Shown here: positions 5,778 to 28,083 of the stretch, in pieces
Position numbering within the stretch: the first letter of the stretch is position 1
Layout of the letters: the number at the start of each line of letters is the position of its first letter
From: a virus
Virus record (IMG/VR): IMGVR_UViG_3300009152_000147
Span: 1-29,842 of that record
Reading direction: 5' to 3' (one strand)
Length of the DNA stretch: 29,842 nt
Notes under the pieces: model-generated
What the model was told of the DNA's origin: nothing
The model's database searches: none
Seen by the model: only the letters and a program-made list of their open reading frames with translations
Made by a program: the position numbers and the translations under genes

Positions 5778-6007
5778 GCCACAGTTCGTCCAACAGCCCT
5801 TACACGGAAGGTCAGATAATAACCATCCAGACCGACCACATCGCGTCACTTGCGTCAAGGGTGATAGAGTACCAGACTAACTTCGATGAACTCATGGACA
5901 TCGCGGTAACGATGCGAGGCGTGATTATAGCGAGCGGTATCAACGACAACGAGGCGTTCAACAGGCAGTCCGAACGGCTCATGAAGTTTATCTCTGAAAA
6001 GAAATGA
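5774..6007 (+). CDS. small phage protein, unknown function
   Basis: 77 residues, coupled at both ends by ATGA overlaps (5774-5777 and 6004-6007). The N terminus is Ser-rich and polar. The remainder looks helical, with heptad-like hydrophobics (IASLASRVIEYQTNFDELMD) and an amphipathic C-terminal helix. A one-mismatch 12-mer (5848-5859) lies inside and is read as L-A-S, preceded nine bases earlier by a GCGTCA half-copy. I do not recognise a family. Confidence 0.6.
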   Translation: MSHSSSNSPYTEGQIITIQTDHIASLASRVIEYQTNFDELMDIAVTMRGVIIASGINDNEAFNRQSERLMKFISEKK

Positions 6008-7545: not shown

Positions 7546-9849
7546 ATGATTGACGAATCAAGGGTGTTCCAGCACCTGTCGCTTTTATTTCCGTTCGAGT
7601 TTACGAACAAGGAATACGTATGCATCCGTGGTATCGGTGAAAAGGGCACACAGCGCGAGGGTGTCTTTAAGGAGGACATATTCCTTCATCCATTCAGCGA
7701 CCCAGCATGGATGTACCACGCCTGTGCCCACATCAAGCGGTGGTCCGAACATGGCATCGCCTCGTTCATAGTCCCAGGAGTTCTCAAAGAGGCCAGGGGC
7801 TCCGCTGAGGCTGTCTGTAAGTTCGCGACTGTGGTGGTTGACATCGACAGCGGTGACACCGCAGCCAAACTACTCCACGCGGAGAAGTACCTTGGCGTAC
7901 CATCCATGGTCATAGAGTCTGGCGGTACCACCGAGGAAGGATTCCCGAAGGTCCACGCCTATTGGCGTGTGCCACCGACTGCCGACATCGCCAGTGTTGT
8001 CAAGGTACGCCATGCTATCGCCATAGCCGTTGGTGGTGACCCTCAGTTCGGACTTGGCGTCCCGTCAAATCCGTATGGCAGGGCGCACCAGCCCGTCAGA
8101 ATTGCTGGCTCACTCAACTGCAAGGGCGGTGGCAACAAGCAGGTAATAATAAGATCGGAAAATGACACAATGATGTTAGACCCATCTGGCGTTCTTACAA
8201 TCGTTGAGGCCATGCCCCGAGCGGAAGGCCTACCGCCCATTGAGGAGGACGCCAAGTTCAAGTTCAAACGCGAGGAGAAGGTCCAACTCAACAAGGATGT
8301 CAAGGCTGGCGGTGACGGAGAAGAGACCCGATGGGGTATGTTTAACCGCGTGGCTGGTCACTACATCCATTGTGCCCGACTTGCGGACATGACCATAAGT
8401 GAGGCTCGCGATGCCACCTTCGGCTGGATGCAAGCCCACATGCAACCACCATGGCCAGACTCAAGGTTTGAGGCAGAGTGGAAAAAGCTAGACCAGCGTG
8501 ACAGACACGCCAACGGCCCATACCCAACAGCAGAGCAGCCGATTGTCCCACAAGGCAGCGGACTCGATGTCTGGGCTACCCACAAGTGGTCCATGGGGGA
8601 ATCCCCTAAGCGCGAGTTCATCGTTCCTGGCCTCATCCTCGCAGGTAAGCACCAGCTATTGGTAGCCGAAGGCGGAGCTGGTAAGACATTCTTGGCCCTA
8701 GACCTCGCGATGAAGGTGGCAGCTTATGCTGGCCCCAAGCCAGAGGACATCAAGAAGTGGTGCGGAATGCCAGTAAACAAGGGCGGAACCGCTGTTGTCA
8801 TCACTACTGAGGACGACAAGGAAGAACTACACATAAGACTTAATGACATAGACCCAGACGGCAGTATGCGTAGGGCTGGCGGTGATAAGTTCATCGTGTT
8901 GCCTACCATTAACACAGGTGGCTCCTTCTGTGTGTCAGAGAAGGACCCGCGTACAGGTGAAATCAAGGCCTCCAAGAAGTGGGCAGAGATACTCACGATG
9001 CTTTCAGCCATACCAGACTTGTCTCTGGTGGTCATAGACACCCTTAATTCAACGCTGCACGGAGACGAGAATAGTGCCGTCACCATCAACGAGTATGTCC
9101 GACACGCCTCACAGGTCTGCGGTCAGCTTGGGGCAGCTTTGCTGATGACCCACCACATCCGCAAGCAGGGAGAGGAACCCATCCGCACGGCAGAAGACAT
9201 GAAAGCTGCCGTCCGTGGCTCCTCAGCTCTCCCCGCGGCTTTCCGTGCCGTCATAGGCGTCTGGCACTGCTCTGACTACATCCGAAGGATGGAAGCCATG
9301 GGCATGGTCCCTTCGCGTGGCTGGCTCTGGAAGATGGCTGTCATCAAGGCCAACAACCCAGAGATGCACCAAGGCGAGCTTACCCTGCTTCGTGGCAAGG
9401 AAGGCCTCTTGCGGGATGTTTCCAGCGTGGACTCGTTCCACGCGGTAAACTCCAACGAGCGCGAAGCGTGGCTGTTCTTGGCTATCCGACTTGCGTCAAT
9501 CGCTGGCCACCCCTACTCGGTGGAGGGCAAGAACGCCAAGAGCGGACTTTATAGACGCAGGGGTGAGTTACCCCCCCTGCTTAGACAAACAGGCCCAGGG
9601 GAATTAGCCATAATAGTGGACAAAATGCTTAATGCAGGTATCCTTATTACAGCGTCAGCCTCTGGTACGGAGAAGAAATGGCTCGACACCCCCACAGGTC
9701 AGTATGCAAACTGTGACGAGGATGGTGCTGATGTAAACTCTGGGGCGTACCTAGACCAGCCTAAATGGGCTGAGTTCGAGTATGACATGGAGTTAAAGTC
9801 TTGCATCAAGAAAGGAACCAAGAAGCCCAAAAACCACTTCGAGTCATGA
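7546..9849 (+). CDS. primase-helicase (prim-pol-like domain plus RepA-like hexameric helicase)
   Basis: 767 residues from ATG 7546 (MIDESR), 1 nt after the previous stop. The first ~230 residues resemble a RepB/prim-pol-type primase: VVVDIDSGD places Asp99 and Asp101 in a DxD pair, followed by a conserved H-A-Y-W-R strand. A primase C-terminal-like helical linker (about 270-340) follows. The helicase domain has Walker A EGGAGKT (375-381), ITTEDDKEE, Walker B LVVIDT (Asp498) and LLMTHHIRK, as in RepA/AAA_25 helicases. One chain would thus prime and unwind DNA for phage replication. An exact 12-mer lies inside (9489-9500). The stop is only 8 nt before the first tRNA gene. The C-terminal ~150 residues are unassigned, possibly winged-helix. 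Confidence 0.8.
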   Translation: MIDESRVFQHLSLLFPFEFTNKEYVCIRGIGEKGTQREGVFKEDIFLHPFSDPAWMYHACAHIKRWSEHGIASFIVPGVLKEARGSAEAVCKFATVVVDIDSGDTAAKLLHAEKYLGVPSMVIESGGTTEEGFPKVHAYWRVPPTADIASVVKVRHAIAIAVGGDPQFGLGVPSNPYGRAHQPVRIAGSLNCKGGGNKQVIIRSENDTMMLDPSGVLTIVEAMPRAEGLPPIEEDAKFKFKREEKVQLNKDVKAGGDGEETRWGMFNRVAGHYIHCARLADMTISEARDATFGWMQAHMQPPWPDSRFEAEWKKLDQRDRHANGPYPTAEQPIVPQGSGLDVWATHKWSMGESPKREFIVPGLILAGKHQLLVAEGGAGKTFLALDLAMKVAAYAGPKPEDIKKWCGMPVNKGGTAVVITTEDDKEELHIRLNDIDPDGSMRRAGGDKFIVLPTINTGGSFCVSEKDPRTGEIKASKKWAEILTMLSAIPDLSLVVIDTLNSTLHGDENSAVTINEYVRHASQVCGQLGAALLMTHHIRKQGEEPIRTAEDMKAAVRGSSALPAAFRAVIGVWHCSDYIRRMEAMGMVPSRGWLWKMAVIKANNPEMHQGELTLLRGKEGLLRDVSSVDSFHAVNSNEREAWLFLAIRLASIAGHPYSVEGKNAKSGLYRRRGELPPLLRQTGPGELAIIVDKMLNAGILITASASGTEKKWLDTPTGQYANCDEDGADVNSGAYLDQPKWAEFEYDMELKSCIKKGTKKPKNHFES

Positions 9850-10023: not shown

Positions 10024-10098
10024 GACCCCGTAGTTCAATGGATAGAACAGGCGGTTTCTACCCGCCTAATCTTGGTTCGAGTCCAAGCGGGGTCACCA
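10024..10098 (+). tRNA. tRNA-Arg (anticodon TCT)
   Basis: Acceptor stem GACCCCG pairs with CGGGGTC. The D-stem is GTTC/GAAC, the anticodon stem is GGCGG/CCGCC with loop TTTCTAC (anticodon TCT, reads AGA), and the T-arm is CTTGG-TTCGAGT-CCAAG. Discriminator A and CCA are encoded. The final A of the CCA is also the first base of a one-mismatch copy of the dispersed 12-mer (10098-10109). Confidence 0.9.
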
Positions 10099-10109
10099 CT
10101 TGCGTCAAG
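10098..10109 (+). promoter_or_regulatory. dispersed 12-mer, one mismatch, abutting tRNA-Arg
   Basis: ACTTGCGTCAAG starts at the last base of the encoded CCA of tRNA-Arg and lies 77 nt before the next tRNA. The rest of the spacer (10110-10186) contains no gene or clear structure that I can see. Confidence 0.7.
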
Positions 10110-10186
10110 TCGGACCCTGGAGACCCCCCAGATGAGGAGGAAGATGTGATTGACACCAGCGACAGTAGTGCTTGGCTATCTAATAT

Positions 10187-11309: not shown

Positions 11310-11508
11310 ATTGCTTACTAACGTAATCAATGTGGTAAAATCGGGTGCATTTACTGACGCCCAAGTGCAGGACATATACTCCTCTGACGGAGTGCAGACT
11401 GCCAAAATCACCAGAAACGAAGACGGCACATTCAATGTCTCCGTGTCTCTGCCACAGGCAGATGGCATTGGTCGCGACATCATGGCGGAGGAGAACGTCC
11501 AATCGTGA
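11281..11508 (+). CDS. small phage protein, unknown function
   Basis: 75 residues. An N-terminal helix (QLDKLLTNVINVVKSGAF) is followed by a beta-type half (TAKITRNEDGTFNVSVSLPQ). It overlaps the previous gene by 29 nt and the next by 4 nt (GTGA). No recognised family; the interlocked ends are the best support for expression. Confidence 0.55.
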   Translation: MNQNTKQLDKLLTNVINVVKSGAFTDAQVQDIYSSDGVQTAKITRNEDGTFNVSVSLPQADGIGRDIMAEENVQS

Positions 11509-11756
11509 GTACCAAGCGCAAGTGGGGTGAGTCCAAGGCTATGGTCATACAGGCCCACGGCATGGGCCTCACAGTCAAGCAGACTGCCAAGCGGTTCGGA
11601 CTGAGCATACTGACTGTCCGAAACCTGGTTGCTCGTCTGGGCATCACCATGTCGGCCGAGAGGCGTGGCTCGTTCGACAAGTTGACCCGCAAGTACGCGG
11701 AGTTCAAGTACGGGGAAAGCGAGGAACGTCCTCGCGGGGAAACTGAGGAAGCATAA
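11505..11756 (+). CDS. small helix-turn-helix DNA-binding candidate
   Basis: 83 residues, starting at GTG in a GTGA overlap with the preceding stop. The centre reads GMGLTVKQTAKRFGLSILTV followed by RNLVARLGI. This is a helix-turn-helix: Q-T-A-x-x-F-G-L-S turn, then a recognition helix V-x-N-L-V-x-R-L-G. Basic residues precede it (STKRKWGESK) and the C terminus is acidic. Phage proteins of this form act as regulators or terminase-like DNA binders. It is the second of three candidates for binding the dispersed 12-mer. Downstream lies a strong inverted repeat (11769-11837) that could be its target or its message's structure. Confidence 0.55.
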   Translation: MSTKRKWGESKAMVIQAHGMGLTVKQTAKRFGLSILTVRNLVARLGITMSAERRGSFDKLTRKYAEFKYGESEERPRGETEEA

Positions 11757-12427: not shown

Positions 12428-12436
12428 CCCACCACC

Positions 12437-12448
12437 ACTTGCGTCAAT
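12437..12448 (+). promoter_or_regulatory. dispersed 12-mer, exact, between rusA and zinc-ribbon gene
   Basis: It lies 9 nt after the rusA stop codon, preceded by CCACC; 30 nt of A/C/T-rich leader separate it from the ATG at 12479. Confidence 0.75.
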
Positions 12449-12478
12449 ACTAACCCTACATCACCAACCCACCACCAC

Positions 12479-12721
12479 ATGATTAACTGCCATCAATGCA
12501 ACGCACCCAAGAAGGTTCTTACCTATTTCCCTTCTTTCCCGATAGCCACCACCACCAGCAAGAAAGGGGAGCCAGCCGTGTTATGCAAGAAGTGCCAGCG
12601 CGAGTTAAAGGCGGTCCGATTTCAAGAAAAAGAAAAACCAGAGTTAGTGCTTGCGTCAATCGAGACCAATGGCATCGTGTTCTCAGACGGCACATTCAAT
12701 CTTTTCCCAACCACCAAATAA
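12479..12721 (+). CDS. small zinc-ribbon protein, unknown function
   Basis: 80 residues. Cys4-x2-Cys7 and Cys36-x2-Cys39 form a CxxC...CxxC pair expected to bind zinc, as in small phage zinc-ribbon proteins that bind DNA, RNA or RNA polymerase. The C-terminal half has a short beta-type segment (ETNGIVFSDGTFNLF). A one-mismatch 12-mer (12649-12660) is read here as L-A-S-I. The start follows an ACC-rich leader with an upstream exact 12-mer 30 nt away. The role is unknown. Confidence 0.6.
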   Translation: MINCHQCNAPKKVLTYFPSFPIATTTSKKGEPAVLCKKCQRELKAVRFQEKEKPELVLASIETNGIVFSDGTFNLFPTTK

Positions 12722-13254: not shown

Positions 13255-13557
13255 ATGACCGACACCACCACCACCACGGAAGCCACCCCCCGCCAGCGTC
13301 GCGGACGCAAGTTGCACGACACCGCCCAGAGCAAGGATGCGAACGGCTGTGTGATGCACCACATCCGCATCCACGCCACGCTCGACAACATCATCCGCGA
13401 AATCGTCCGCGAGCAGGGAGTCTCGTTCCGCGATGCGTCCGAGGAGGCGATGATTGACTACGCTAACAAGCATGGTCGCAGGGTCGTTTCCATCACCAAG
13501 GAAATCGAGGTTCGCACCATCGAGAAGGTCACGACCTTTGCTGACGCTGACGCGTAG
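13255..13557 (+). CDS. ribbon-helix-helix-like DNA-binding candidate
   Basis: 100 residues. A Thr-rich, basic N terminus (TPRQRRGRKLHDTAQ) precedes HHIRIHATLDNIIREIVREQ and SFRDASEEAMIDYANKHG. A short strand (IRIHA) followed by two helices is the layout of ribbon-helix-helix (Arc/MetJ) proteins, which dimerise and bind short operators. It is the third candidate binder of the dispersed 12-mer. An exact copy begins 1 nt after its stop codon, another follows 15 nt later, and the motif is densest just downstream. This position would suit autoregulation. RHH folds are hard to call by eye, so the assignment is tentative. Confidence 0.45.
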   Translation: MTDTTTTTEATPRQRRGRKLHDTAQSKDANGCVMHHIRIHATLDNIIREIVREQGVSFRDASEEAMIDYANKHGRRVVSITKEIEVRTIEKVTTFADADA

Positions 13558-13558
13558 C

Positions 13559-13570
13559 ACTTGCGTCAAT
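13559..13570 (+). promoter_or_regulatory. dispersed 12-mer, exact, after the RHH-like gene
   Basis: It begins 1 nt after the TAG stop and is followed by CGTGGAGTCACTTCC leading into a second copy. Confidence 0.75.
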
Positions 13571-13585
13571 CGTGGAGTCACTTCC

Positions 13586-13597
13586 ACTTGCGTCATT
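13586..13597 (+). promoter_or_regulatory. dispersed 12-mer, one mismatch, second copy in the gap
   Basis: ACTTGCGTCATT; 27 bases from the start of the first copy to the start of this one, and 14 nt before the terminator at 13612. Confidence 0.7.
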
Positions 13598-13611
13598 CAT
13601 GGCTGACGGAG

Positions 13612-13638
13612 AACCCTCTTAACCGAGGGTTTTTTATT
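13612..13638 (+). terminator. rho-independent terminator
   Basis: Stem AACCCTC/GAGGGTT with a six-base loop, followed directly by a T-rich run. It ends the transcript of the RHH-like gene and separates two 12-mers upstream from one downstream. Confidence 0.85.
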
Positions 13639-13660
13639 TATGCTAATCTTACATGAATCC

Positions 13661-13672
13661 ACTTGCGTCAAT
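13661..13672 (+). promoter_or_regulatory. dispersed 12-mer, exact, before the AAA ATPase gene
   Basis: Located between the terminator and the ATPase gene, 28 nt before the ATG at 13701. The order terminator, 12-mer, gene recurs at 17.98, 18.6 and 18.95 kb. Confidence 0.75.
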
Positions 13673-13700
13673 GCCGTAGCGGTACACAAACCTCTTTGCC

Positions 13701-15038
13701 ATGACGCACCCAACCGATAACACAAACCCCGCAACCGCAACCCCCAAGACCTATGCCGAGATGTCGCACAACGAACGGCAGAAGTACCAGAACGAAACTC
13801 CGCTGTCCGAGTGGACGATGGAGATGCTCACGATGGCGATGCCCTCGCGTGGCTACGGATATATCTCCGAGGACTCCGCGATGTGCAACACCGAAGCCCA
13901 CTACAATCGTTGGTTCAACCTCATGGGCGTGAGTGATGCACAGTTCAACGCCCTCAACGACAAGCAACGCATCGACATCTACGATGACAAGAAGGACGGA
14001 CTGCTCCGTACTGTCATCAAGATGCGTCCTGCCGACATCCGCAACCGCCCCGCCACGCTCTCCCACTTGGAAGTGAGTCGCGTCCGCGAGTGCATTGATG
14101 CCGACAAGATGGCGTTCGCGATGAGCGACAGCATCGTGAAGGCGATGGTTCACGCCACGCAGAACGCGGTGACTCTCGAAGATGTCCGCAGGATTGTCCG
14201 CGATGAGATGCCACTTGCGTCAATGAAGGGTGGCAAGCCCCGCGTCATCAAGATTCAGCAGGGCGATGAGGAGGCTCGCGTCATCGAAGGCATCGTTCAC
14301 AAGAAGTTCGACCGCGTGTTGAAGATGTGTACCCGCGATAATGTGATGCTCGTTGGCGGTGCTGGTTCGGGCAAGACCACGATTGCCCGACAGGTCGCTG
14401 GTGCGTTGAAACTTCCCTTCTACTTCACAGGTGCAATCCCGCACGAAGCCAAGTTGCTGGGCTTCATCAACCCTCACGGCAAGTATGTCGAAACCGCTTT
14501 CTATCGTGCGTGGACTACGGGCGGTGTGTTCCTCATGGACGAGGTCGATGCCTCCGACCCGCAAGCCATGCTCTCCATCAACGCGGCACTTGATAACGGC
14601 ATCTGCGATTTCCCGAACGGCATGGTCGAGAAGCACAAAGATTTCCACTTCATCGGAGCCGCGAATACTTTCGGCAAGGGTGCTACCATGGACTACATTG
14701 GTCGCAACGCCCAAGACGAAGCAGGACGCTCCCGCTGGTTCTACATCCATATCGAGTACGATGAAGTGATGGAGGAAACCATCGCCCAACAGTTCGCCCC
14801 CGAAGAGATTACGCTGGGCTGGTGCAAATACATCCGAGCCGTCCGCAAGGCGGTGGAGACTCTCTCCGAGCGTCACATCGTGTCCCCGCGTTCCACCATC
14901 AAGGGAGCGAGGGCGTTGGCTATCGGTATCCCCCGCGATGAAGTGGAGGACGCGGTGCTGTGGCATCAGATGGATGGCGAACGCAAGCGACGCATCCTCG
15001 AAGAAGCGAAGAAACTCTGCGGAGGACTCCTGCCCTAA
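13701..15038 (+). CDS. MoxR/CobS-like AAA ATPase (AAA_5)
   Basis: 445 residues. The first ~200 residues are a helical, charged region without a known domain. The ATPase core has Walker A GGAGSGKTT (219-227), Walker B FLMDEVD (Asp280, Glu281) and a sensor-like FHFIGAANTFG strand with Asn. It continues through SRWFYIHIEYDEVMEE, as in MoxR, CobS and dynein-related AAA_5 proteins. Such ATPases remodel partner proteins, often a VWA or other partner encoded next door. CobS-like copies occur in several phage groups with unproven roles. The next gene (15061) may be the partner. One exact 12-mer lies inside (14213) and others flank both ends. Confidence 0.8.
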   Translation: MTHPTDNTNPATATPKTYAEMSHNERQKYQNETPLSEWTMEMLTMAMPSRGYGYISEDSAMCNTEAHYNRWFNLMGVSDAQFNALNDKQRIDIYDDKKDGLLRTVIKMRPADIRNRPATLSHLEVSRVRECIDADKMAFAMSDSIVKAMVHATQNAVTLEDVRRIVRDEMPLASMKGGKPRVIKIQQGDEEARVIEGIVHKKFDRVLKMCTRDNVMLVGGAGSGKTTIARQVAGALKLPFYFTGAIPHEAKLLGFINPHGKYVETAFYRAWTTGGVFLMDEVDASDPQAMLSINAALDNGICDFPNGMVEKHKDFHFIGAANTFGKGATMDYIGRNAQDEAGRSRWFYIHIEYDEVMEETIAQQFAPEEITLGWCKYIRAVRKAVETLSERHIVSPRSTIKGARALAIGIPRDEVEDAVLWHQMDGERKRRILEEAKKLCGGLLP

Positions 15039-15045
15039 TCCATCC

Positions 15046-15057
15046 ACTTGCGTCAAT
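15046..15057 (+). promoter_or_regulatory. dispersed 12-mer, exact, 3 nt before a start codon
   Basis: The motif, then CCC, then ATG at 15061. The same tight ACTTGC.TCAATCCCATG arrangement recurs at 17375. A promoter at this distance could not place its -10 before the gene, which favours an operator or RNA-level role here. Confidence 0.75.
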
Positions 15058-15060
15058 CCC

Positions 15061-15918
15061 ATGACCATGCTTAACATCAAGGAACGCACGACAGAGACAA
15101 GTGCGGTTCGCGTCTACCACTCCGTTGAACACGCCTTGCGTGTCGCGGAGAATGGTGGCGTATGGAAATCTACTCGCTCGTCCCGCAAAGGCTCCGACTC
15201 TTGGTCGGGCGGTTCGTTCTCCGAGGCGATGAAACTCGCCAAGTACGGCTGGCGTGACGGAGCGAAGGACATCCGCAAGGCGTTCGCTGACCTTCCCTCG
15301 CCCTCGCTGTCCGCTGGCAACGCGTGGAGGCACGACTACTATGGCGAACGCATCGACATGGCTCGCTTCTCCTATGGCGATGACGCTTGCTTCCGCACCC
15401 GAAGCGGTAGCGACAGGGGTCGGGCGAAACTCGTCCGCATCCTCGTCCCCATGGCTTACCCATGCTCCACCAGCGACACCGATGTAGTCAACCGAGGCTC
15501 TGCCATCATCAGCGTGGTGGACGCGTTGGAGATGACCCGCAGGACTGTCGAGTTGGTCTGCTGTTACTCATCGACCTCCGCTGGCTCCCGCAAACCAACA
15601 TCGGGCTTCCACATGAACCACGCTGTCGTGGTGAAGCAAGCGGGACAACCATTCGACATCGAACGCCTCGCGTTCTTCCTGTCGCACACCGCGTCTCTCC
15701 GCAGGATTGGATTCGCCCTCATGGAGTCGGTTGCCGAAGCGGAGCAGTCGCACAGCGGTGGCTACGGCTACGGATGCAACATCCACCCCGATGATTTGAG
15801 CATGAACACCATCGCGTTGCCCGAACTCCACGGAGGCAAGTGGAACACTCCCGCCAAGGCTCGCGAAACACTTGCGTCAATCGTGCGTGAACAAGGACAC
15901 GCTCTCTCCTTCCGATGA
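15061..15918 (+). CDS. possible AAA-ATPase partner protein, unknown function
   Basis: 285 residues from ATG 15061 (an ATG two codons later is also possible). The N-terminal part has YHSVEHALRVAENGG and GGSFSEAMKLAKYGWRDGAK. The middle has a hydrophobic VNRGSAIISVVDALE strand-helix and the C-terminal part is Gly/His-rich. A GG-S-x-EA-x-x-LA-x-x-GW block followed by a VDALE region is something I associate with uncharacterised phage proteins found beside AAA ATPases. No VWA metal site is evident. Adjacency to the ATPase gene (22 nt) is the main functional clue. An exact 12-mer (15870) is read as L-A-S-I near the C terminus, 33 nt before the next start. Confidence 0.6.
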   Translation: MTMLNIKERTTETSAVRVYHSVEHALRVAENGGVWKSTRSSRKGSDSWSGGSFSEAMKLAKYGWRDGAKDIRKAFADLPSPSLSAGNAWRHDYYGERIDMARFSYGDDACFRTRSGSDRGRAKLVRILVPMAYPCSTSDTDVVNRGSAIISVVDALEMTRRTVELVCCYSSTSAGSRKPTSGFHMNHAVVVKQAGQPFDIERLAFFLSHTASLRRIGFALMESVAEAEQSHSGGYGYGCNIHPDDLSMNTIALPELHGGKWNTPAKARETLASIVREQGHALSFR

Positions 15919-16037
15919 AGGACAGGCTTGCGTTAATCCTTCTGGTGGCTTGTTATCTGTTCATGGCAGTTGCCATCTGCTCGATTGCAAGTTGCACCGC
16001 GAAGCACCTTTCCCCCCAAACCACAACCCAGAAATAA
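15915..16037 (+). CDS. 40-residue lipoprotein
   Basis: A short gene starting in an ATGA overlap with the previous stop. The product is MKDRLALILLVACYLFMAVA followed by ICSIASC and 13 more residues. The positively charged start, hydrophobic core and lipobox IASC make Cys27 the predicted lipidated residue, leaving a mature peptide of about 14 residues. Phage Rz1-type outer-membrane spanins and plasmid colicin-lysis proteins are small lipoproteins of this kind, though Rz1 is longer. It also contains a two-mismatch 12-mer (15926-15937). Coupled start and clear signal support a real gene; the function is unknown. Confidence 0.55.
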   Translation: MKDRLALILLVACYLFMAVAICSIASCTAKHLSPQTTTQK

Positions 16038-16045
16038 CACACACC

Positions 16046-16927
16046 ATGAAGCCCAAACCCGAAAACGAAAACAACGATGAAGGAATCAAGCCAACGCTCC
16101 ACGAGAATTCGTGGGAGGTTCGCATCGCGGAGATGCGACTCCGCGGTGGCTCCATCCTTGAAACTTGGTATCCCCTACTTGCGTCAATCCTGTCCCATGT
16201 CGGGCAGACTGCCGTCCTTACGGCTCGCTCCGCAGGGCTGGTGAAGGACGCAGACGCGTACCGCAGGAACATGGACACGGCTCGCTTCTGTGCTGCCGTT
16301 CGTGCCTCGCTCGTCTTGTTCAACGAAGGCGGTGCAGAGTACGCGTCCAAGAAACTCGAACGCATTACGGACGGACACGAACCCGACACCGCGAAGGAGA
16401 TGGTCGAGAATTGGATTGCGACTGTTAAGCAACTCCCCGCCCCGCACTTCCCGATGATGGACACCAAGGTCATGGTCGCGATGCGTATCCGCGAGGACGA
16501 AGAGGAGAACACCATCGAACTCGTCTTTGACGAGACGCTCTGCGGTAAGAACCTCCACCACCCCGATGACAAGGACGCACAGGAAGCCATGGCGAACGAG
16601 ATGGCGAAGCAGGAGAAGCACATGGGCATCACCAACAAAGTGCCTCCCATCCTCTCGGACGATGAGAAGCCCCGCGATGGCGTGGACGAGGATGGAACGA
16701 CCACCACTACCAAGGATGTCGGTGGCTTCATCGAAGTGCGGAAGACCAAAGACCGCACGCCCACGCCTCCGAAGAAACCCGCGAAGAACGACAAGAAGAG
16801 CCTCAACGATTTCCTCGATGAGATGCTCTCCAAGCAAGCGGAGGAATCGGACAAGCGAGCGAAGGACGCGAAGGACAAGCGAGACGCGGAGGATGACGAA
16901 CCTCTCCCGCCCTCGCGGTTCAACTGA
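16046..16927 (+). CDS. hypothetical phage protein with disordered charged C-terminal half
   Basis: 293 residues from ATG 16046, which follows an A/C leader (AACACACACC). The N-terminal half appears folded and helical (WEVRIAEMRLRGGSILETWY; RRNMDTARFCAAVRASLVLF). The C-terminal half is highly charged, with Thr, Asp, Lys and Pro runs (TTTTTKDVGG; PTPPKKPAKNDKKS), and ends in ADDEEPLPP-like acidic sequence. No motif is recognised. An exact 12-mer inside (16177) encodes L-A-S-I, and another follows the stop by 9 nt. It may work with the ATPase and partner genes upstream, by position only. Confidence 0.6.
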   Translation: MKPKPENENNDEGIKPTLHENSWEVRIAEMRLRGGSILETWYPLLASILSHVGQTAVLTARSAGLVKDADAYRRNMDTARFCAAVRASLVLFNEGGAEYASKKLERITDGHEPDTAKEMVENWIATVKQLPAPHFPMMDTKVMVAMRIREDEEENTIELVFDETLCGKNLHHPDDKDAQEAMANEMAKQEKHMGITNKVPPILSDDEKPRDGVDEDGTTTTTKDVGGFIEVRKTKDRTPTPPKKPAKNDKKSLNDFLDEMLSKQAEESDKRAKDAKDKRDAEDDEPLPPSRFN

Positions 16928-16936
16928 CGCTCTCTC

Positions 16937-16948
16937 ACTTGCGTCAAT
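16937..16948 (+). promoter_or_regulatory. dispersed 12-mer, exact, before a terminator
   Basis: This copy lies between the stop codon at 16927 and the terminator hairpin. A promoter reading into a terminator would be pointless, so this copy argues for an operator or stoperator role. Confidence 0.75.
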
Positions 16949-16953
16949 CACAA

Positions 16954-16980
16954 GCCCCCGACATCGGGGGTTTTTCTTTT
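16954..16980 (+). terminator. rho-independent terminator
   Basis: Stem CCCCCG/CGGGGG with loop ACAT, followed by TTTTTCTTTT. Almost the same hairpin ends the transcript at 17982. Confidence 0.92.
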
Positions 16981-17036
16981 GCGTTGTGTCCAGCGTGTCG
17001 CGGTGCGTAATGGGAGATGCACTACGCACACATACC

Positions 17037-17369
17037 ATGAAACTAAATCACCCGCCTGTCATTCAATGGAATGACCCCACCGCAAGCATCAGCATGATTT
17101 CCCACTCGGGACACACGCTCGATAAAGCACCAGACGGAGCCTCGTTCACGCTCCGCTTTCGGCAACCCTCGAACGGCTACATCATGGTCGAGTGGGAGGT
17201 CGAGAGTGCTGACCACAGCATCTTTGAGGAAGGCTCCATCACCATCGCGTACAAGGATGACGGCATGATGGGCGAAGCCATCGACTATGACGGAGCGTTT
17301 GAACTTCCGCACCAACTCAATGACCGCCTCATGGCTCTCGGCTACTGCACGAAGGACATCACCGCCTAA
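17037..17369 (+). CDS. hypothetical phage protein
   Basis: 110 residues from ATG 17037 (MKLNHP), after a CACACATACC leader. The upstream gap holds a 7-bp inverted repeat (GTGCGTA 17003-17009, TACGCAC 17023-17029) just before the start. The protein is beta-rich in appearance (GASFTLRFRQPSNGYIMVEW; SITIAYKDDG) with an acidic helix near the end. No family is recognised. It stands alone between a terminator and the next 12-mer, so it probably has its own promoter in the 56-nt gap. Confidence 0.55.
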   Translation: MKLNHPPVIQWNDPTASISMISHSGHTLDKAPDGASFTLRFRQPSNGYIMVEWEVESADHSIFEEGSITIAYKDDGMMGEAIDYDGAFELPHQLNDRLMALGYCTKDITA

Positions 17370-17374
17370 TAATC

Positions 17375-17386
17375 ACTTGCATCAAT
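17375..17386 (+). promoter_or_regulatory. dispersed 12-mer, one mismatch, 3 nt before a start codon
   Basis: ACTTGCATCAAT then CCC then ATG at 17390, the same spacing and CCC as at 15046. Confidence 0.7.
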
Positions 17387-17389
17387 CCC

Positions 17390-17608
17390 ATGAGCGAAAC
17401 CAATCCCCTCGGTCAGCCAGCACCCGACAGCGTATTCAAATGCGACTGCGGTAGCGGACTCCACACACAGAAGCAGTACGATGGACACGGCATCTATCTC
17501 TGTCGCACCTGTCGCACCTGCCACCAGAAGAAGATGAGTCGCTATCGTCGCGACATCCGCGAGCAGTACGAGTGTGACGAACCCATCTACGGAGAGGGCG
17601 ATTACTAA
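17390..17608 (+). CDS. cysteine-rich zinc-binding-like small protein
   Basis: 72 residues. Cys18 and Cys20 (CDCGS) and Cys38, Cys41 and Cys44 (CRTCRTC) around a DGHGIYLC core suggest a zinc site. The CDCGS...DGHGIYLC..C pattern with a basic KKMSRYRRDI tail is one I recall from unannotated phage and bacterial proteins. The CRTCRTC segment comes from a tandem 9-bp duplication near 17503-17520. The acidic C terminus ends EGDY. Function unknown; DNA, RNA or protein binding is possible. Confidence 0.6.
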   Translation: MSETNPLGQPAPDSVFKCDCGSGLHTQKQYDGHGIYLCRTCRTCHQKKMSRYRRDIREQYECDEPIYGEGDY

Positions 17609-17610
17609 AC

Positions 17611-17622
17611 ACTTGCGTCAAC
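17611..17622 (+). promoter_or_regulatory. dispersed 12-mer, one mismatch, intergenic
   Basis: ACTTGCGTCAAC starts 2 nt after the stop codon and is 29 nt before the ATG at 17652. The intervening leader contains TACTAAAAC, a possible poor -10 element. Confidence 0.7.
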
Positions 17623-17651
17623 CTCGCACCTCGTACTAAAACAAATTCGCC

Positions 17652-17957
17652 ATGCACTACCACACACGCAAACGGAAAGCCAAGAAGAACAACACCACCG
17701 CGAACAAGACTCTCGCCACCATCGCCTCCGCGGTGGTCTGGCAGGAGTTCGACACGCTCACCAACAACATCCTCCTCGCCTTCGAGGGAAGCGAACGCGT
17801 GGACGCGTTCCGCAAGTTGGCGAAACTCGCCAGCATCAAGGCTGACGAAATCGAGGATGACATCCGCAAGTTCCACGAAAAGCGAATGGGCGTTTCTCTC
17901 GCTCACCTTTCGCTCTCGAAGGGAATGTGGGTGCGGAGGGTTCACACGAAACTGTAA
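17652..17957 (+). CDS. small basic hypothetical protein
   Basis: 101 residues. The N terminus is very basic (MHYHTRKRKAKKNNTTANK), followed by helices (VVWQEFDTLTNNILLAFEGS; VDAFRKLAKLASIKADEIED). It has no recognised motif. The basic start and helical body could fit a nucleic-acid-binding protein. The gene is a single-gene unit: 12-mer upstream, terminator downstream. Confidence 0.55.
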   Translation: MHYHTRKRKAKKNNTTANKTLATIASAVVWQEFDTLTNNILLAFEGSERVDAFRKLAKLASIKADEIEDDIRKFHEKRMGVSLAHLSLSKGMWVRRVHTKL

Positions 17958-17980
17958 GCGGTCAACGCATACGGAAGCAA

Positions 17981-18009
17981 CGCCCCCGACATCGGGGGCT
18001 TTTTGTTTT
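17981..18009 (+). terminator. rho-independent terminator
   Basis: Stem GCCCCCGA/TCGGGGGC (17982-17999) with a short CA-type loop, followed by TTTTTGTTTT. The last base runs straight into the next 12-mer. Confidence 0.92.
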
Positions 18010-18010
18010 C

Positions 18011-18022
18011 ACTTGCGTCAAT
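18011..18022 (+). promoter_or_regulatory. dispersed 12-mer, exact, directly after a terminator
   Basis: 27 nt before the ATG at 18050. The start region TGGTCGTGCATGAA (18041-18054) is repeated exactly at 19007-19020 with the same motif-to-ATG spacing. Confidence 0.8.
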
Positions 18023-18049
18023 CTCTGCTCTGACCTTCTCTGGTCGTGC

Positions 18050-18229
18050 ATGAACTACCCATACCGCCCCCCACTGTCACAACGCATCCGCACCGCGAGC
18101 CTCTGGCTCTTGGTCGATATGCTCAACGCTCTCTCGCGTCTCGCGTTCCGCGTTGGTCGCGTCCTCTCGGACGCTTCCGATGCTGTCGCGGTGCATGAGT
18201 TCACCAACCGCGAGAAGACCATCCGATGA
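18050..18229 (+). CDS. small basic hypothetical protein
   Basis: 59 residues (MNYPYRPPLSQRIRTASLWL...). The middle (LWLLVDMLNALSRLAFRVGR) is an amphipathic, partly hydrophobic helix that could sit on or in a membrane; the C terminus is polar. The stop overlaps the next start as ATGA (18226-18229). No family is recognised. It begins 27 nt after an exact 12-mer, with no Shine-Dalgarno. Confidence 0.5.
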   Translation: MNYPYRPPLSQRIRTASLWLLVDMLNALSRLAFRVGRVLSDASDAVAVHEFTNREKTIR

Positions 18230-18582
18230 CCAAGGCAACGCACAAGCAGGCTCGCCTGCTCATCGAAGAGCAAGCCACCTTCACCGCGTCCTCGGTGTTC
18301 GCGATTCAGTACCCGCGAGGATATGTCGTGTTTTCCTATGGTCATCACTTCCCGATGTTCGCTTGCGTCAATGACAGGGACGGCAGTCGCAAGTGGTTCG
18401 TGAATGTCCGCAAGTATTCGACCACGACCTCGAAGCACACGACCACGCTCCGTCCTCGCGGTGTGAGCCTCACGCCTTCCTCGCATGACACGATGCTGGG
18501 GCTTCATCGTGCTATCGCTCGCGGTGACGCTCACGACCTCGCTTGTTATATCGAGGGTGACCCGCATCACGCGAAAGGCTGA
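18226..18582 (+). CDS. conserved-looking phage protein, unknown function
   Basis: 118 residues, coupled to the previous gene. The features are a basic start (MTKATHKQARLLIEEQATFT), then VVFSYGHHFPMFACVNDRDG and YSTTTSKHTTTLR. A V-x-x-YG-x-HFP strand followed by Y-S-x-TTS-x-H is a pattern I recall from many uncharacterised phage and plasmid proteins. No catalytic role is known to me. A one-mismatch 12-mer (18361-18372) is read here in a different frame, as C-V-N instead of L-A-S-I. A terminator follows 22 nt after the stop. Confidence 0.6.
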   Translation: MTKATHKQARLLIEEQATFTASSVFAIQYPRGYVVFSYGHHFPMFACVNDRDGSRKWFVNVRKYSTTTSKHTTTLRPRGVSLTPSSHDTMLGLHRAIARGDAHDLACYIEGDPHHAKG

Positions 18583-18604
18583 ACGCCTCGCGAGCAAAAC
18601 GAGA

Positions 18605-18636
18605 AGCCCGATGTGATGTCGGGCTTTTTTGTTTCC
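18605..18636 (+). terminator. rho-independent terminator
   Basis: Stem AGCCCGA/TCGGGCT (18605-18611 with 18619-18625), loop TGTGATG, followed by TTTTTGTTT. The next 12-mer begins at 18637. Confidence 0.92.
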
Positions 18637-18648
18637 ACTTGCGTCAAT
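18637..18648 (+). promoter_or_regulatory. dispersed 12-mer, exact, directly after a terminator
   Basis: 60 nt before the ATG at 18709, longer than the usual 27-30 nt; the extra length is an A/C-only leader. Downstream bases (CGTGCATCGCAGATT) resemble those after the copy at 18977. Confidence 0.8.
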
Positions 18649-18708
18649 CGTGCATCGCAGATTTATCAAGCGTGTCGCAAGACACCAAACACCAAACCAA
18701 AACCAAAC

Positions 18709-18924
18709 ATGAGCAACATGAGTTACTGTCGGTTCAACAACACACGCATCGACCTCCAAGACTGCGTTGACGCGTGGCATGAGGGCGTGTCCTCCAAGGA
18801 CGAAGCGAGAGCGAGGAAGGCTCTCATCGAGGTCGCGGAGGAAATCATCGAACTCGCGAAACAGGATTCCGAGATGGTCGCGAACCTCGAACTGAATGAG
18901 GAGGGCGATGACGATTCCGAGTAG
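18709..18924 (+). CDS. conserved small phage protein (MSYCRF type)
   Basis: 71 residues, beginning MSNMSYCRFNNTRIDLQDCV and continuing with helices (ARARKALIEVAEEIIELAKQ) to an acidic end (EEGDDDSE). A start of MSNMSYCRF-x-NT-x-x-DL-x-DC is found in many uncharacterised phage and bacterial proteins, so the gene is real. Function unknown. The leader (ACACCAAACCAAAACCAAAC) is A/C only. It is a single-gene unit between two terminators. Confidence 0.7.
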   Translation: MSNMSYCRFNNTRIDLQDCVDAWHEGVSSKDEARARKALIEVAEEIIELAKQDSEMVANLELNEEGDDDSE

Positions 18925-18944
18925 TCGCTTTTCACTTACGAAAA

Positions 18945-18974
18945 AAAATCAGACCGCTTCGGCGGTTTTTTTTT
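18945..18974 (+). terminator. rho-independent terminator
   Basis: Stem ACCGC/GCGGT with a TTCG tetraloop (18953-18966), a T-run after it and an A-run before it, so it could work in both directions. Confidence 0.9.
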
Positions 18975-18976
18975 GC

Positions 18977-18988
18977 ACTTGCGTCAAG
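18977..18988 (+). promoter_or_regulatory. dispersed 12-mer, one mismatch, directly after a terminator
   Basis: ACTTGCGTCAAG, 27 nt before the ATG at 19016, matching the spacing of the copy at 18011. Confidence 0.8.
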
Positions 18989-19015
18989 CGTGGGTCGGAG
19001 ATTGTTTGGTCGTGC

Positions 19016-19534
19016 ATGAAAACACATACGCATAACGAAATGACAAAACTGATTCTCACAAATCCCGATAAGGTTCGCGACCTTGTTCGGCTCACGCTGA
19101 CTGTCTGCTGGCACGCGAAAGTGTGCGGTGCGGTGAACATTGAGTTCGAGGGTCAGCACTTCACGCTCGCTGTCTCAATCATCGGAGACGGCAAAGGCGG
19201 TGAGCGTACTTGGATTAATGACGCTTACATGATGCCAGAAGGAAATACTAATTGGCTTCTGCGGGATATGAAAATGAAGTTCGCTTGCGTCAAGGCTGAC
19301 GCGAAAAAGGAAAAGAAAGAAAAGAAGAAAGCGAAGCGTGAGCATGAGTCGCTCACGGATGAAGAGTTGCAGGAGTATCACGCGAACGCTCTCGCGACTC
19401 GCAGAGGTGCTGGCGGTCACGGCAAGGCTCACTACAACGGACTCCGCGTCATCGCGTTCCTCGCGGAGATGGACGCTCGCGGTCAGAAGCCCGATGGTCG
19501 CGAGGGTTCGTTTAACGGCATCGGCAGTTACTGA
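19016..19534 (+). CDS. hypothetical phage protein
   Basis: 172 residues from ATG 19016; an in-frame ATG at 19040 is possible, but 19016 has the conserved TGGTCGTGCATGAA context. The N-terminal half is beta-rich (CGAVNIEFEGQHFTLAVSII). A Lys/Glu-rich helix follows (KADAKKEKKEKKKAKREHES), then a helical C-terminal part with RRGAGGHGKAHYNGLR and ending FNGIGSY. A two-mismatch 12-mer inside (19283) is read as C-V-K. No family is recognised. Confidence 0.6.
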   Translation: MKTHTHNEMTKLILTNPDKVRDLVRLTLTVCWHAKVCGAVNIEFEGQHFTLAVSIIGDGKGGERTWINDAYMMPEGNTNWLLRDMKMKFACVKADAKKEKKEKKKAKREHESLTDEELQEYHANALATRRGAGGHGKAHYNGLRVIAFLAEMDARGQKPDGREGSFNGIGSY

Positions 19535-19540
19535 CCCGCG

Positions 19541-19592
19541 ATTGACGCAAGTGAGCAAGGGAGCCAAGTGGCTCCCCCTCGCTCGCGTCATT
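19541..19592 (+). repeat. long imperfect inverted repeat holding a reversed 12-mer
   Basis: The 111-nt gap before the small terminase gene. ATTGACGCAAGT (19541-19552) is an exact 12-mer on the minus strand. ATTGACGC pairs with GCGTCATT (19585-19592), GAGC with GCTC, and GGGAGCCA with TGGCTCCC around an AG loop; a four-base bulge and a few mismatches interrupt the stem. No T-run follows. It may be a binding site for regulators or terminase, or a transcript-stabilising hairpin. Confidence 0.6.
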
Positions 19593-19645
19593 CCTGGGGG
19601 TCGTGTGAGCGTCTCGCGGTTGACGCGTGGGCTGACTCGCGCACG

Positions 19646-20242
19646 ATGTCGGGCATGGAGCAGAGAGAATCAAGGGCGGGAGGCGGTATCGCGATAAGGG
19701 CGGGAGCCGTCCGTATTGGCTCTCTGGGGCGTTTTGAGTCTGGGGTTGGGGTGGAGAGCCTCACGGAACAGCAGAGAGCCTTTGTGGAGGCGTTCTGCTC
19801 AAATGGCGGGGACGCGAAGCGAGCGAGCAAAGATGCGGGATACTTGTCCCCCCACGCTCCAACCCGCCTCATGGGATTGACGCAAGTGAGACACGCTGTC
19901 TCCCTCAACCTTGAACGGCAGGTCAAGGGGGAGGGAGCCTCCCTCGCGTGGGGTTGCGTCCTGCACATCCTCCGCGACCCTGCCACGCCCTCCGCTGTCC
20001 GCTTCCAAGCAGCGAAGTGGACGCTTGAAGCAAGTGGGCTTAACGCAAGCGTGAACCCGAAGCCCGACTCGATGCCTCTCGCCTCAATGTCGCTCGCTGA
20101 CCTCGAAGGGCTGGTAGAGGCTACGCGTGCCTCCCTTGCGTCAGTCGTGGACATCGAATCGAGCGAAAGCGGGGGTTTTTCAGAGGATGCCACCCCTCCC
20201 GCCAAGGGCAACGCGGTGGTCGATTCCATTGACGCCCCGTAA
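19646..20242 (+). CDS. terS: terminase small subunit
   Basis: 198 residues from ATG 19646; an in-frame ATG at 19568 lies within the inverted repeat and is less likely. The segment LTEQQRAFVEAFCSNGGDAK followed by RASKDAGY is the classic start of phage small terminase helix-turn-helix domains (LT-x-x-QxxFVExYxxxG-x-xxAxxxAGY). The remainder is helical, with a flexible Ser/Pro-rich tail. It would recognise phage DNA and load the large subunit. It keeps the GC-rich codon style of the upstream block, unlike the tail fibre gene that follows. Here the 12-mer is reversed (19876-19887, exact); another copy on the plus strand (20134-20145) has two mismatches. The large subunit is separated from it by the tail fibre gene. 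Confidence 0.75.
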   Translation: MSGMEQRESRAGGGIAIRAGAVRIGSLGRFESGVGVESLTEQQRAFVEAFCSNGGDAKRASKDAGYLSPHAPTRLMGLTQVRHAVSLNLERQVKGEGASLAWGCVLHILRDPATPSAVRFQAAKWTLEASGLNASVNPKPDSMPLASMSLADLEGLVEATRASLASVVDIESSESGGFSEDATPPAKGNAVVDSIDAP

Positions 20243-20285
20243 CATAAATTTTTGAAAAAACCTACCAACCTAGACATTTTGTACC

Positions 20286-23200
20286 ATGAGCAATCAACCT
20301 CCCCCTTACAGTCGGCAATTTAACTTTGAAGATTACCAGACATTAAACCCAACCGCACCGCTCCCAGGGGAGAAGGTTGAGGCAGAGCTAAATGGAGCTC
20401 GATCTTCCATAAACCAAACAATATCAAGACTTAATGAAATCCAGAATGCTGATGGAAGCCTCAAAACCCCCGCTGCTCTTGCCGCGGAAACAACTGCCAC
20501 TGCTACTGCTGTGGCTACTACTGTGGCTGAATCCGCCACACAGGCCTACCTGTCAGCAAACTACGACCCGACTATAGCCGCACAGGCAGCAGCCAGCGCA
20601 GATGGTGCCGAGGCTGACAGAATCATAACTGGTAGCTATCAGCAATCGGCCCAGGCCAATGCTTATGCCGCTGAGCAGCAAGCTCAGTTTGCACAGACAC
20701 AGGCCTCACAGGCATCTACAGCCAGACAACAGGCTCAAGACCATGCCGCTGCAGCCAACACCTCAAAGCTAGAAACTGCGGCTTTGGCCGTAGCCGTTGA
20801 GGCAGACTTCAATGAGGTCGCTGCTGTTTATGCGGCAAGCTTGTCGCTCAAGAATTGGGTAGATTCAGAGTCATTCCAGTTCCTGCACAAGCGGGAAGAC
20901 ATGGCGGACGCTGGTGCCATAATGATGTTTAACGATGGTGAGGCCGATAATACCCTAATCGGTAAGGTTTTCCAGGGTGCATCTGTTAGTCTCGACTCTT
21001 CGGTTGTATACAGACCGCCTACATCTGGAACGTCTGTCGGCAACATGGACATATTCAGCGGTCCGTGGTGGGTCGAGGGTCACGATTCCCCAGAAGACCC
21101 GCACAAGATTGTCATGCGAGATATGATGTCTTGCCTAGTTGACACTTGGACGACTTTTGGACCAAGGGTTGGCTCTTGGTCTGGCGGGGTTGGAAATATA
21201 AAGCCAAGACAGAATGGCATTAACGGACAGCCTAATACGTCAGCGCACATAGGCCCAGAAAGAATTAAAGGCGTCAATTACTCAAAGGATAACTTTGGGA
21301 TTGGCCTGTACCAAGGCTCATCGCCATTGACACCTAAGAGCTACGTTGACGATGCCGACTTGGCCCTTGGCGTCAGAATTGACGGCAAGGCCAACACAGT
21401 GCATACGCACATAATTGGGAATGTTACTGGACTGCAGACCGCGCTGGATGGAAAATCTGCTACTACGCATTCGCATATTATCTCTGATATAACTGGGCTT
21501 CAGACTACAATAGATGGAAAGCTTTCACTTTCTGGTGGAGCAATGAGCCATAATGCATTTATAACAATGACAGAATCAACAAATGATTCTGAGCTTGCTG
21601 GGTGGGGTCTTGGTGTTGAGCTTACGTCAGATACAACACAGGGTACTACAGTTGAATACAACGGATTGCATACCTATGGTAATGGAAGTTTTATTACTGT
21701 AAATCCTACTGGTATAACATTCCCAGACTCTACAGTCCAGACAACAGCATGGACTGGAACTGGAGGCTCATTCCTGCCGCTTGCTGGTGGCACAATGACG
21801 GGTAATATAACATTTGATGGTACATCTGGTCAGTACATAGGCAAGGGTTCGTTCGATACGTCTCGCGGTGGAAACTTTGGCATTAGCTTGATGTGTTCAA
21901 TAGGTTATGAATTTAATTGGCAAGCTGGATGGCTTAAAACAACTGAGCAGGGAAGCTCGGCTGGGCGTTCGTTGTATCTAGACTGCGATGCTGGAACCAC
22001 ACTTAAAGCATGGAGCATTGCAAGTAACCATGGAGTTGAAATTCGCGCTGATGCTATTGTATTTCCAGACTCTACAGTTCAAACTACTGCATCAAATAGC
22101 GCATGGCAAGTTCAATCAGTAACAAATTCTCATTATATGAGTGGAGCTCCAGCTACATCTGGACCTTTTAATTTTACATATTTTGATAATTGGACTCAAT
22201 CACAATCAACAGTTGAATTAAGAATAGAAGCACCAAGTGATGGATTTAACTATGATGGATATAATGTTAACTTTGATGATGCTGCTCCTTATGCATCTTT
22301 TAGCGTTAATCATCCTAGCAAAACAGTAATAATAGGACTTAATGGATACGCGACAATGCAAGAGGCTGTTTCTGCTCTCAACTATGGGATTGGAAGCGGT
22401 GGATGGATTCTTTATGGAAATGGAAGTCCGTATGCAAGTGCCAGTGTTTTAACTGGAGCCAGTAGAACTGTTTATGGAGTACAGGTAAATGCCAATGGTA
22501 AAAGCTTCGTAATTAGAGAAGGATTCATTGAAACGTTTAACGAGGTTATAAAAAATAACAATTACTTCGATAGGCTTATTGGAACAGATGCTGGTGGTAA
22601 AATGTATTTTTATGATAAGAGTCTTTACGCAGAATCTGCAGATGTTGCATATAAATCCGGGACTACATTCACTGGAAAAGTAAACCTTGCAGCGCCAACG
22701 GCTAACACGGCAAGCCTTAACCTTGGCGTGGGGACATCACCAACCACCTCTGTTGCTGGTGACATCTGGATTTCTACTAACATTAACTTTAAGGCAAACG
22801 ATGGAGTGTTTAAACTCGTTGCTAACACAAACACAACGAACACATTTACACAGCCACAAATTATCAGCAGTACCACGACTTCGGCCGCCCTGCGAATCAC
22901 TCAACTAGGGACTGGTGAGGCGTTTCGCGTTGAAGACTCTACCAGCCCAGATTCAACTTCATTTATAGTAAGTAATGATGGAAACGTTGGAATAGGATAT
23001 TCCAGCTTAACGGAACCTACGACCGCAAATTTAGCAATAAAAGGAAGAACTGGCATTGCAAGATGTTTAAATATTGATGCTACTGTAAACGGATACGGAA
23101 TAGGTTTGTTTGGAATGTCTGGAGTAATGGCAATGAATGTTCAAAATGGATATATAAATTGCGATGGTGGTGGTATTAAATTGGGCTATTATGGGTCTAT

Positions 23201-24889: not shown

Positions 24890-24909
24890 CAAACAAACAA
24901 ACAAACAAA
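24890..24909 (+). repeat. (AACA)5 microsatellite leader
   Basis: The whole 20-nt gap between the large terminase stop and the portal ATG is a tetranucleotide repeat of A and C. It probably acts as an unstructured leader; its length could vary by slippage between isolates. Confidence 0.75.
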
Positions 24910-27009: not shown

Positions 27010-27048
27010 TATTTGACAAACAATAAATTCTGGTAACAATATAAACCG

Positions 27049-28050: not shown

Positions 28051-28057
28051 ATTTAGG

Positions 28058-28074
28058 CCAAAAACCAAAAAACA
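28058..28074 (+). repeat. 17-nt A/C leader repeat, copy 2 (before capsid gene)
   Basis: Identical to 4788-4804. It is followed by TATAAAAAT before the ATG, giving the capsid gene a G-free leader of more than 20 nt. Confidence 0.6.
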
Positions 28075-28083
28075 TATAAAAAT

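Follow-up and report, generated by a model that had tools for sequence, protein, structure and literature searches.

A polar, dispersed 12-14-bp element in the early genes of a clade of uncultured tailed phages: a candidate site for a phage transcription regulator

The promoter-early-stem-loop (PeSL) elements of T4-type phages are mobile regulatory cassettes in which a terminator and then a promoter stand between small early genes. The stoperators of phage L5 and cluster A are asymmetric 13-mers, present in 20-30 copies oriented with transcription, with phage-specific variants and few copies at promoters; in L5, the repressor blocks elongation at sites that point in the direction of transcription (PMC6550527, PMC9283540). 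The SAS/ESAS elements of cluster K are 13-bp polar repeats of the non-structural region that lie partly near an ATG and sometimes include the upstream stop codon; SAS copies stand 3-7 bp before the ATG, contain a Shine-Dalgarno (SD) core (AGGAG), and fall within open reading frames (ORFs) in 6 of 125 cases (PMC3203893, PMC12699233). Sigma-factor promoters of phages phiEco32 and 7-11 likewise carry a short conserved phage-specific element, but are few and of the extended -10 type (PMC4331800). Here we describe a 12-14-bp element dispersed through the early genes of IMG/VR record IMGVR_UViG_3300009152_000147, a linear fragment of 29,842 bp (the window) that by gene content belongs to an uncultured tailed phage, and compare it with its counterparts in five related genomes. 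It is best called a variant of the dispersed polar phage operators.

The core of the element, TTGCGTCA (its first T is T0 below), occurs 25 times in the window against 1.4 expected, with a maximum of 7 in 100 first-order Markov simulations; its main form is CACTTGCGTCAATC, and CACTTGCGTCAA occurs 17 times against 0.01 expected. Matches at up to three mismatches number 71 against 29, higher than in any shuffle. The full element reads (CA or G)TTGCGTCA(A/T/C)TCC, with the consensus TTGCGTCAWTCY. A motif scan found IMGVR_UViG_3300021961_000917 (L023, here G1), which is colinear with the window and 79% identical to it at the nucleotide level over 9 kb, and protein searches yielded four further colinear relatives from IMG/VR: G2 (3300047273_000108), G3 (3300023174_000812), G4 (3300044641_002729) and G5 (3300010388_000330). 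The comparison set thus comprises six genomes, one of which, G4, is near complete at about 48.8 kb, since the ends of its 49,750 bp overlap by 984 bp at 97.5% identity. All five relatives carry the motif as CTTGCGTCAATC or GTTGCGTCANTC, almost always in the direction of transcription: exact cores in the window divide 23 to 2 between the plus and minus strands, and the 11-mer TTGCGTCANTC in G4 divides 27 to 0. The core is constant while the flanks drift phage by phage (CTTGCGTCAATC versus GTTGCGTCATTC/ACTC), CTTGCGTCAATC being the form in the window, G1 and G2, and GTTGCGTCATTC, -CACTC or -CAATC the forms in G3, G4 and G5.

The motif is dense in the early block and sparse in the structural genes. 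No dispersed set of TTGCGTCANTC was found among the other loci examined, outside the six genomes; among the matches listed for the 14-mer in IMG/VR, only G1 has many copies and the others have one each; and the motif does not occur in TerL relatives at 67-70% identity, in Microcystis phage Mae-Yong1326-1 or in Rhizobium phage N65. The early-gene concentration and these absences led us to reject a uniform host-type signal, such as Chi or an uptake sequence, and a literature search on the motif returned only unrelated papers.

Nearly every early gene has at least one copy. In G4, each of the 13 early genes has a copy either within it or in the preceding gap (16 sites; 8.4 expected, P=0.0001), as do 12 of 15 in the window, where the tendency is weaker (P=0.07). 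Intergenic sequence makes up 11-12% of the early block, yet holds 11 of 16 and 11 of 18 copies (p ~2e-7 to 3e-7). With a simple terminator finder run on the early blocks of the six genomes, a motif lies within 30 nt of 25 of the 29 early-region terminators, against 12-16% for random positions. Downstream copies mostly start 8-14 nt past the stem, directly after the U tract, and upstream copies end 0-10 nt before it.

The earlier note had described a repeated cassette of terminator, 12-mer and start codon. Its terminators at 13612, 17981, 18605 and 18945, which we place at 13608-13635, 17982-17999, 18602-18628 and 18951-18968, are indeed each followed by a copy (T0 at 13663, 18013, 18639 and 18979), and its gaps from 12-mer to ATG are exact (30, 28, 29, 27 and 27 nt for 12437, 13661, 17611, 18011 and 18977). 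The cassette is real, but the copies at 12437 and 17611 follow a stop codon rather than a terminator, the ATG after the terminator at 18605 lies 60 nt from the 12-mer instead of 27-30 nt, and about half of the copies had been left out: two lying 4 nt upstream of an ATG (15045, 17374), nine or more within genes, three before terminators (13558, 13585 and 16936, the last in front of a terminator at 16952-16973 that the note does not list), and reversed copies at 19542 and 19877. A cassette of terminator and promoter therefore does not describe the whole set, because about half of the copies (intragenic, pre-terminator, or 13 nt before an ATG) are not promoter-like.

Distances from T0 to the ATG form two clusters, one at 13 nt (TTGCGTCAATCCCATG, often spanning the whole stop-start gap) and one at 37-40 nt. 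The spacing is kept in all five relatives: across the window and these genomes, 9 of 16 gene families have a median distance of 37-40 nt, and the range of 33-41 nt takes in 13 of the 16. Among 200,000 uniform draws over 20-90 nt, none placed as many families in any 4-nt window, a P value that is indicative only, because we compiled families and distances manually. Copies of the 38-nt and post-terminator class have an AT-rich hexamer exactly 17 bp past TTGCGT (T0+23 to +28), the place expected for the -10 box of a leaderless promoter, with an A+T fraction of about 0.72 against about 0.35 at +14 to +22. In sigma70-type promoters the -35 and -10 hexamers stand 16-18 bp apart. Averaged over the class, the -10 score is highest at +23 but still negative (-1.6); with one representative per family the peak is again at +23 (shuffle p=0.0004). 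The hexamers (TTCTCT, TTGTTT, TTTATC, TTTTGT) are poor sigma70 boxes, so that initiation there would require an activator or a different specificity factor; the G1 counterpart of the copy at 17610 has TATAAC 18 nt past TTGCGT. No space is left for another promoter, since only 8-14 nt separate stem and motif, and this, together with the fixed spacing and the AT-rich hexamer, argues for a promoter-proximal role at post-terminator genes. Starts in the window mostly lack an SD and have A/C-rich leaders upstream. Structural genes have better -10-like boxes 3-7 nt before the ATG, TATAAT-like before the major capsid (MCP) and portal genes in the window or its relatives, which makes leaderless messages plausible in this phage generally; in the window, such structural boxes lie at 20240-20286, 24880-24910, 27020-27049 and 28050-28084. 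The earlier proposal that TTGCGT acts as the -35 box of leaderless promoters is thus supported for the post-terminator and 27-30-nt subset; it cannot apply to copies that lie inside a gene, before a terminator or 13 nt from an ATG, none of which could start a leaderless message of the gene that it marks.

Copies inside genes are constrained as nucleotides and not as protein, judging from codon conservation. Counting only codons with a conserved amino acid, intragenic motif codons are identical between the window and G1 in 29 of 29 cases (elsewhere 64%, p=3e-6), between the window and G2 in 27 of 29 (60%, p=7e-5), between G4 and G3 in 20 of 21 (47%, p=3e-6), and between G4 and G5 in 17 of 18 (73%, p=0.02). 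The copy in the CobS-like AAA gene is kept in all six genomes, and reads MPLAS in the window, G1 and G2 versus MPLRQ or MPLRH, in another reading frame, in G3-G5. Codon identity and this change of frame led us to reject a protein-level explanation. Intragenic copies have nothing hexamer-like at +23 to +28, where their A+T fraction is 0.35-0.56.

We tentatively favor the explanation that the motif is a polar DNA binding site of a phage-encoded transcription regulator, with at least one copy at nearly every early gene, serving control of both initiation and elongation. Where there is room, after a terminator or stop codon, a copy would lie at -35 in a weak promoter with its start point at or next to the ATG, giving a leaderless message whose initiation is regulated. 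Where there is none, and in intragenic and pre-terminator copies, the bound regulator would act on passing RNA polymerase, as at L5 stoperators; elongation control would be the simplest single-factor account of such copies. The early block would then be controlled gene by gene, for example by shut-off once a Cro-like or ribbon-helix-helix (RHH) protein accumulates. The sequences themselves show the number and polarity of the copies, their abutment to terminators, the fixed spacing, the AT-rich hexamer, the constraint on nucleotides, the coverage of genes and the drift between phages; we infer the binding of a protein, the identity of the regulator and the sign of regulation. The more specific proposal, that each early gene has one polar operator, placed at a leaderless -35 behind a terminator or, without room, within coding sequence, and read by one regulator at initiation or elongation in a phage with no recognized lysogeny genes, is possible but more doubtful.

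Two candidate regulators, a Cro/YdaS-like helix-turn-helix protein and a small RHH-like protein, are conserved wherever the relatives cover the region. The AF2 model of the former has a pLDDT of 90, with N15 Cro as the best fold match (E 0.37, not significant); that of the latter has low confidence and shows two helices, with no Pfam match and no significant PDB match. Several points weigh against the regulator explanation. The match to the Cro fold does not reach significance, and the sites of Cro and RHH proteins are usually symmetric or repeated. Because all genes run one way, polarity with transcription is not separable from polarity with the genome or packaging direction. Furthermore, the explanation leaves unaccounted for the reversed copies and an inverted motif pair near terS: this pair, which folds into a strong hairpin, separates the last early gene from terS in six of six genomes (z -4.4 to -5.7), one arm being degenerate in the window and G4. 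Finally, nothing among the ORFs scanned in near-complete G4 was recognized as an L5-type repressor, an integrase or parA, so that a lysogenic role is unsupported.

An unlikely competitor, close to the earlier note, sees in the motif nothing more than a promoter's -35 half, used by a special sigma factor or an activator, with leaderless messages and each early gene an independent promoter-gene-terminator unit of moron or PeSL type. The 37-40-nt spacing in 9 of 16 families, the hexamer at 17 bp, the 8-14 nt from stem to motif and the -10 boxes 3-7 nt before other ATGs would all follow from it, but the intragenic copies lack the hexamer and are scattered along genes, the 13-nt and pre-terminator copies have no gene to start, and all of these are conserved. 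The special sigma factor that the earlier note invoked did not turn up either: no sigma-like protein was found conserved, no cognate sigma or RNA polymerase gene was recognized in G4, and a sigma-region-4-like helix-turn-helix (11505-11756), a weak match without detectable homologue in G3 and G4, both motif carriers, was rejected as a specificity factor. A promoter for a phage RNA polymerase was also rejected, no polymerase having been recognized in G4, whose 4418-aa protein matches SNF2-helicase-like sequences only.

An RNA-level tag seems improbable to us; here each early mRNA would carry the sense motif for recognition by a phage RNA-binding protein, a ribonuclease, an antitermination factor or a small antisense RNA. 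Such a tag would explain why the motif is always sense and about one per gene, why 13-nt copies occupy the position of a ribosome binding site, why reversed copies followed by hairpins (19541, 19876) resemble an antisense seed plus stem, and why a hairpin with an anti-motif arm is kept in six genomes; however, post-terminator copies would be transcribed by read-through only, the fixed 38-nt spacing and AT-rich hexamer favor DNA-level initiation, in G3 and G5 a motif copy pairs with the anti-motif, and Rfam gave nothing but tRNA above the gathering score. Least probable of all is a recombination or exchange-boundary sequence (a gene-cassette linker, DNA-uptake or Chi-like site) at gene borders. 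Copies do lie at gene borders and terminators, one immediately precedes the AAA domain encoded by its gene, and the phage encodes Sak4, a Cas4-type exonuclease and RusA, but the concentration in early genes with near absence from structural ones, the sharp spacing to the ATG and the drift of the motif between phages all speak against it.

Coordinates of the motif copies and other features of the window are listed in the table; all genes used in the analysis lie on the plus strand, calls of small genes are ORF-based, and there are four tRNA genes. A capsid search of genome contigs gave a sole match, a metagenome-assembled genome (MAG) contig labeled Deltaproteobacteria. The 4418-aa protein of G4 (L154/L155, 29512-42768), with its SNF2-helicase-like segments, is apparently a giant polyvalent virion protein, and window positions 2-1810 match its C-terminal part. 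Other repeats were noticed as well: GTCTG/CAGAC is about 5-fold over-represented in the TerL relatives L165 (IMGVR_UViG_3300042519_001001) and L166 (3300024348_000072), with 213 and 231 copies, respectively, on both strands summed in about 20 kb, and TGTCCTGG/CCAGGACA occurs 51 times against 4.4 expected in Mae-Yong1326-1 (L273, OP028995.1), without preference for the coding strand.

Table. Motif copies, terminators and selected genes of the window, in order of position
Feature	Position	Strand	Remarks
Outlying intragenic copy	2679-2692	+	
Cro/YdaS-like helix-turn-helix protein	3222-3446	+	kept in G3, G4; candidate regulator
Sak4-like annealing protein	3886		
SSB	4816		
Outlying intragenic copy	5847-5860	+	gene 5774-6007
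Cas4-type exonuclease	6400		
Primase-helicase	7474		
Outlying copy	9488-9501	+	primase-helicase gene
Motif copy	10097-10110	+	starts at very 3' end of tRNA-Arg gene; also in G2
RusA	11948		
Motif copy	12436-12449	+	T0 to ATG 40 nt, 5' of gene 12479-12721; follows stop codon at 12427; 38-40 nt in G1, G2
Intragenic copy (reads LASI)	12648-12661	+	gene 12479-12721; codons identical in G1, G2
Small RHH-like protein	13255-13557	+	kept in window, G1-G4; candidate DNA-binding regulator
Motif copy	13558-13571	+	abuts stop codon of 13255-13557; kept in G1, G2
Motif copy	13585-13598	+	directly 5' of terminator, gap 8 nt; arrangement also in G1-G4
Intrinsic terminator	13608-13635	+	
Motif copy	13660-13673	+	post-terminator; T0 13663, 38 nt to ATG 13701; 38 nt also in G1, G2, G3
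CobS-like AAA gene	13701-15038		
Intragenic copy	14212-14225	+	CobS-like AAA gene
Motif copy	15045-15058	+	fills stop-to-start gap, T0 13 nt before ATG 15061; 5' of DUF7192 gene
DUF7192 gene	15061		
Motif copy	15869-15882	+	3' end of DUF7192 gene; T0 43 nt before ATG 15915
Variant copy (TTGCGTTAATC)	15925-15938	+	start of small gene 15915-16037
Intragenic copy	16176-16189	+	gene 16046-16927; codons identical in G1, G2
Motif copy	16936-16949	+	between stop codon and terminator, gap 1 nt; likewise in G1, G2
Intrinsic terminator	16952-16980	+	not in the earlier note's list; copy sits in front
Variant copy (TTGCATCAATC)	17374-17387	+	T0 13 nt before ATG 17390
Motif copy	17610-17623	+	follows stop codon; T0 39 nt before ATG 17652
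Intrinsic terminator with U tract	17982-18008	+	
Motif copy	18010-18023	+	T0 18013, 37 nt to ATG 18050
Weak -10-like hexamer TTCTCT	18036-18041	+	17 bp past TTGCGT
Intragenic copy	18360-18373	+	gene 18226-18582
Intrinsic terminator with U tract	18602-18635	+	
Motif copy	18636-18649	+	T0 18639, 70 nt to ATG 18709; TTTATC at 18662-18667
Intrinsic terminator with U tract	18951-18974	+	
Motif copy	18976-18989	+	T0 18979, 37 nt to ATG 19016; TTGTTT at 19002-19007
Intragenic copy	19282-19295	+	gene 19016-19534
Inverted motif pair around hairpin	19536-19600	.	end of early gene block, before terS; reversed copy at 19542
Reversed motif copy	19876-19889	-	inside terS-like gene, beside GAGACA/TGTCTC hairpin; also in G1, G2
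Terminase large subunit	23291		
Portal	24910		
MCP	28084		
Motif copy	29531-29544	+	structural region, T0 34 nt before ATG 29568; also in G1, L133, L135

Set against the described systems, the element resembles L5 stoperators in being an asymmetric site in 20-30 copies along transcription (27 to 0 in G4, 23 to 2 in the window) with phage-specific variants and with few of its copies at putative promoters, and differs in that its copies are associated with terminators and keep a set distance of 38 nt from the ATG, that about 30-40% of early-block copies are intragenic, and that the L5-type genes named above were not recognized. No repressor with a helix-turn-helix and a Stoperator domain was recognized in a Pfam/PHROG scan of proteins from G4 and the window, nor was a temperate hallmark (integrase or parABS) among the G4 ORFs scanned; because no lysogeny module or repressor was found, we describe the element as stoperator-like and do not file it as a member. 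With SAS it shares a polar repeat in non-structural genes, a portion of copies close to the ATG and, at times, inclusion of the upstream stop codon, but it has no SD (AGGAG is absent from the consensus), two spacing classes and many intragenic copies, and only the 13-nt class (counted from T0) comes near the start, most copies lying elsewhere rather than 3-7 bp from it. In contrast to PeSL, what is repeated here is the 12-mer instead of an entire cassette, and some copies stand without a terminator; unlike phiEco32 and 7-11, no sigma or anti-sigma factor was found conserved in this clade. Since the flanks of the motif, its spacing and the candidate regulators covary among the six genomes, these lend themselves to tests. 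If the regulator explanation is true, this phage clade would exert stoperator-like, gene-by-gene control of transcription without a recognized lysogeny module, and one site would serve the control of both initiation and elongation, its placement dictated by gene packing.

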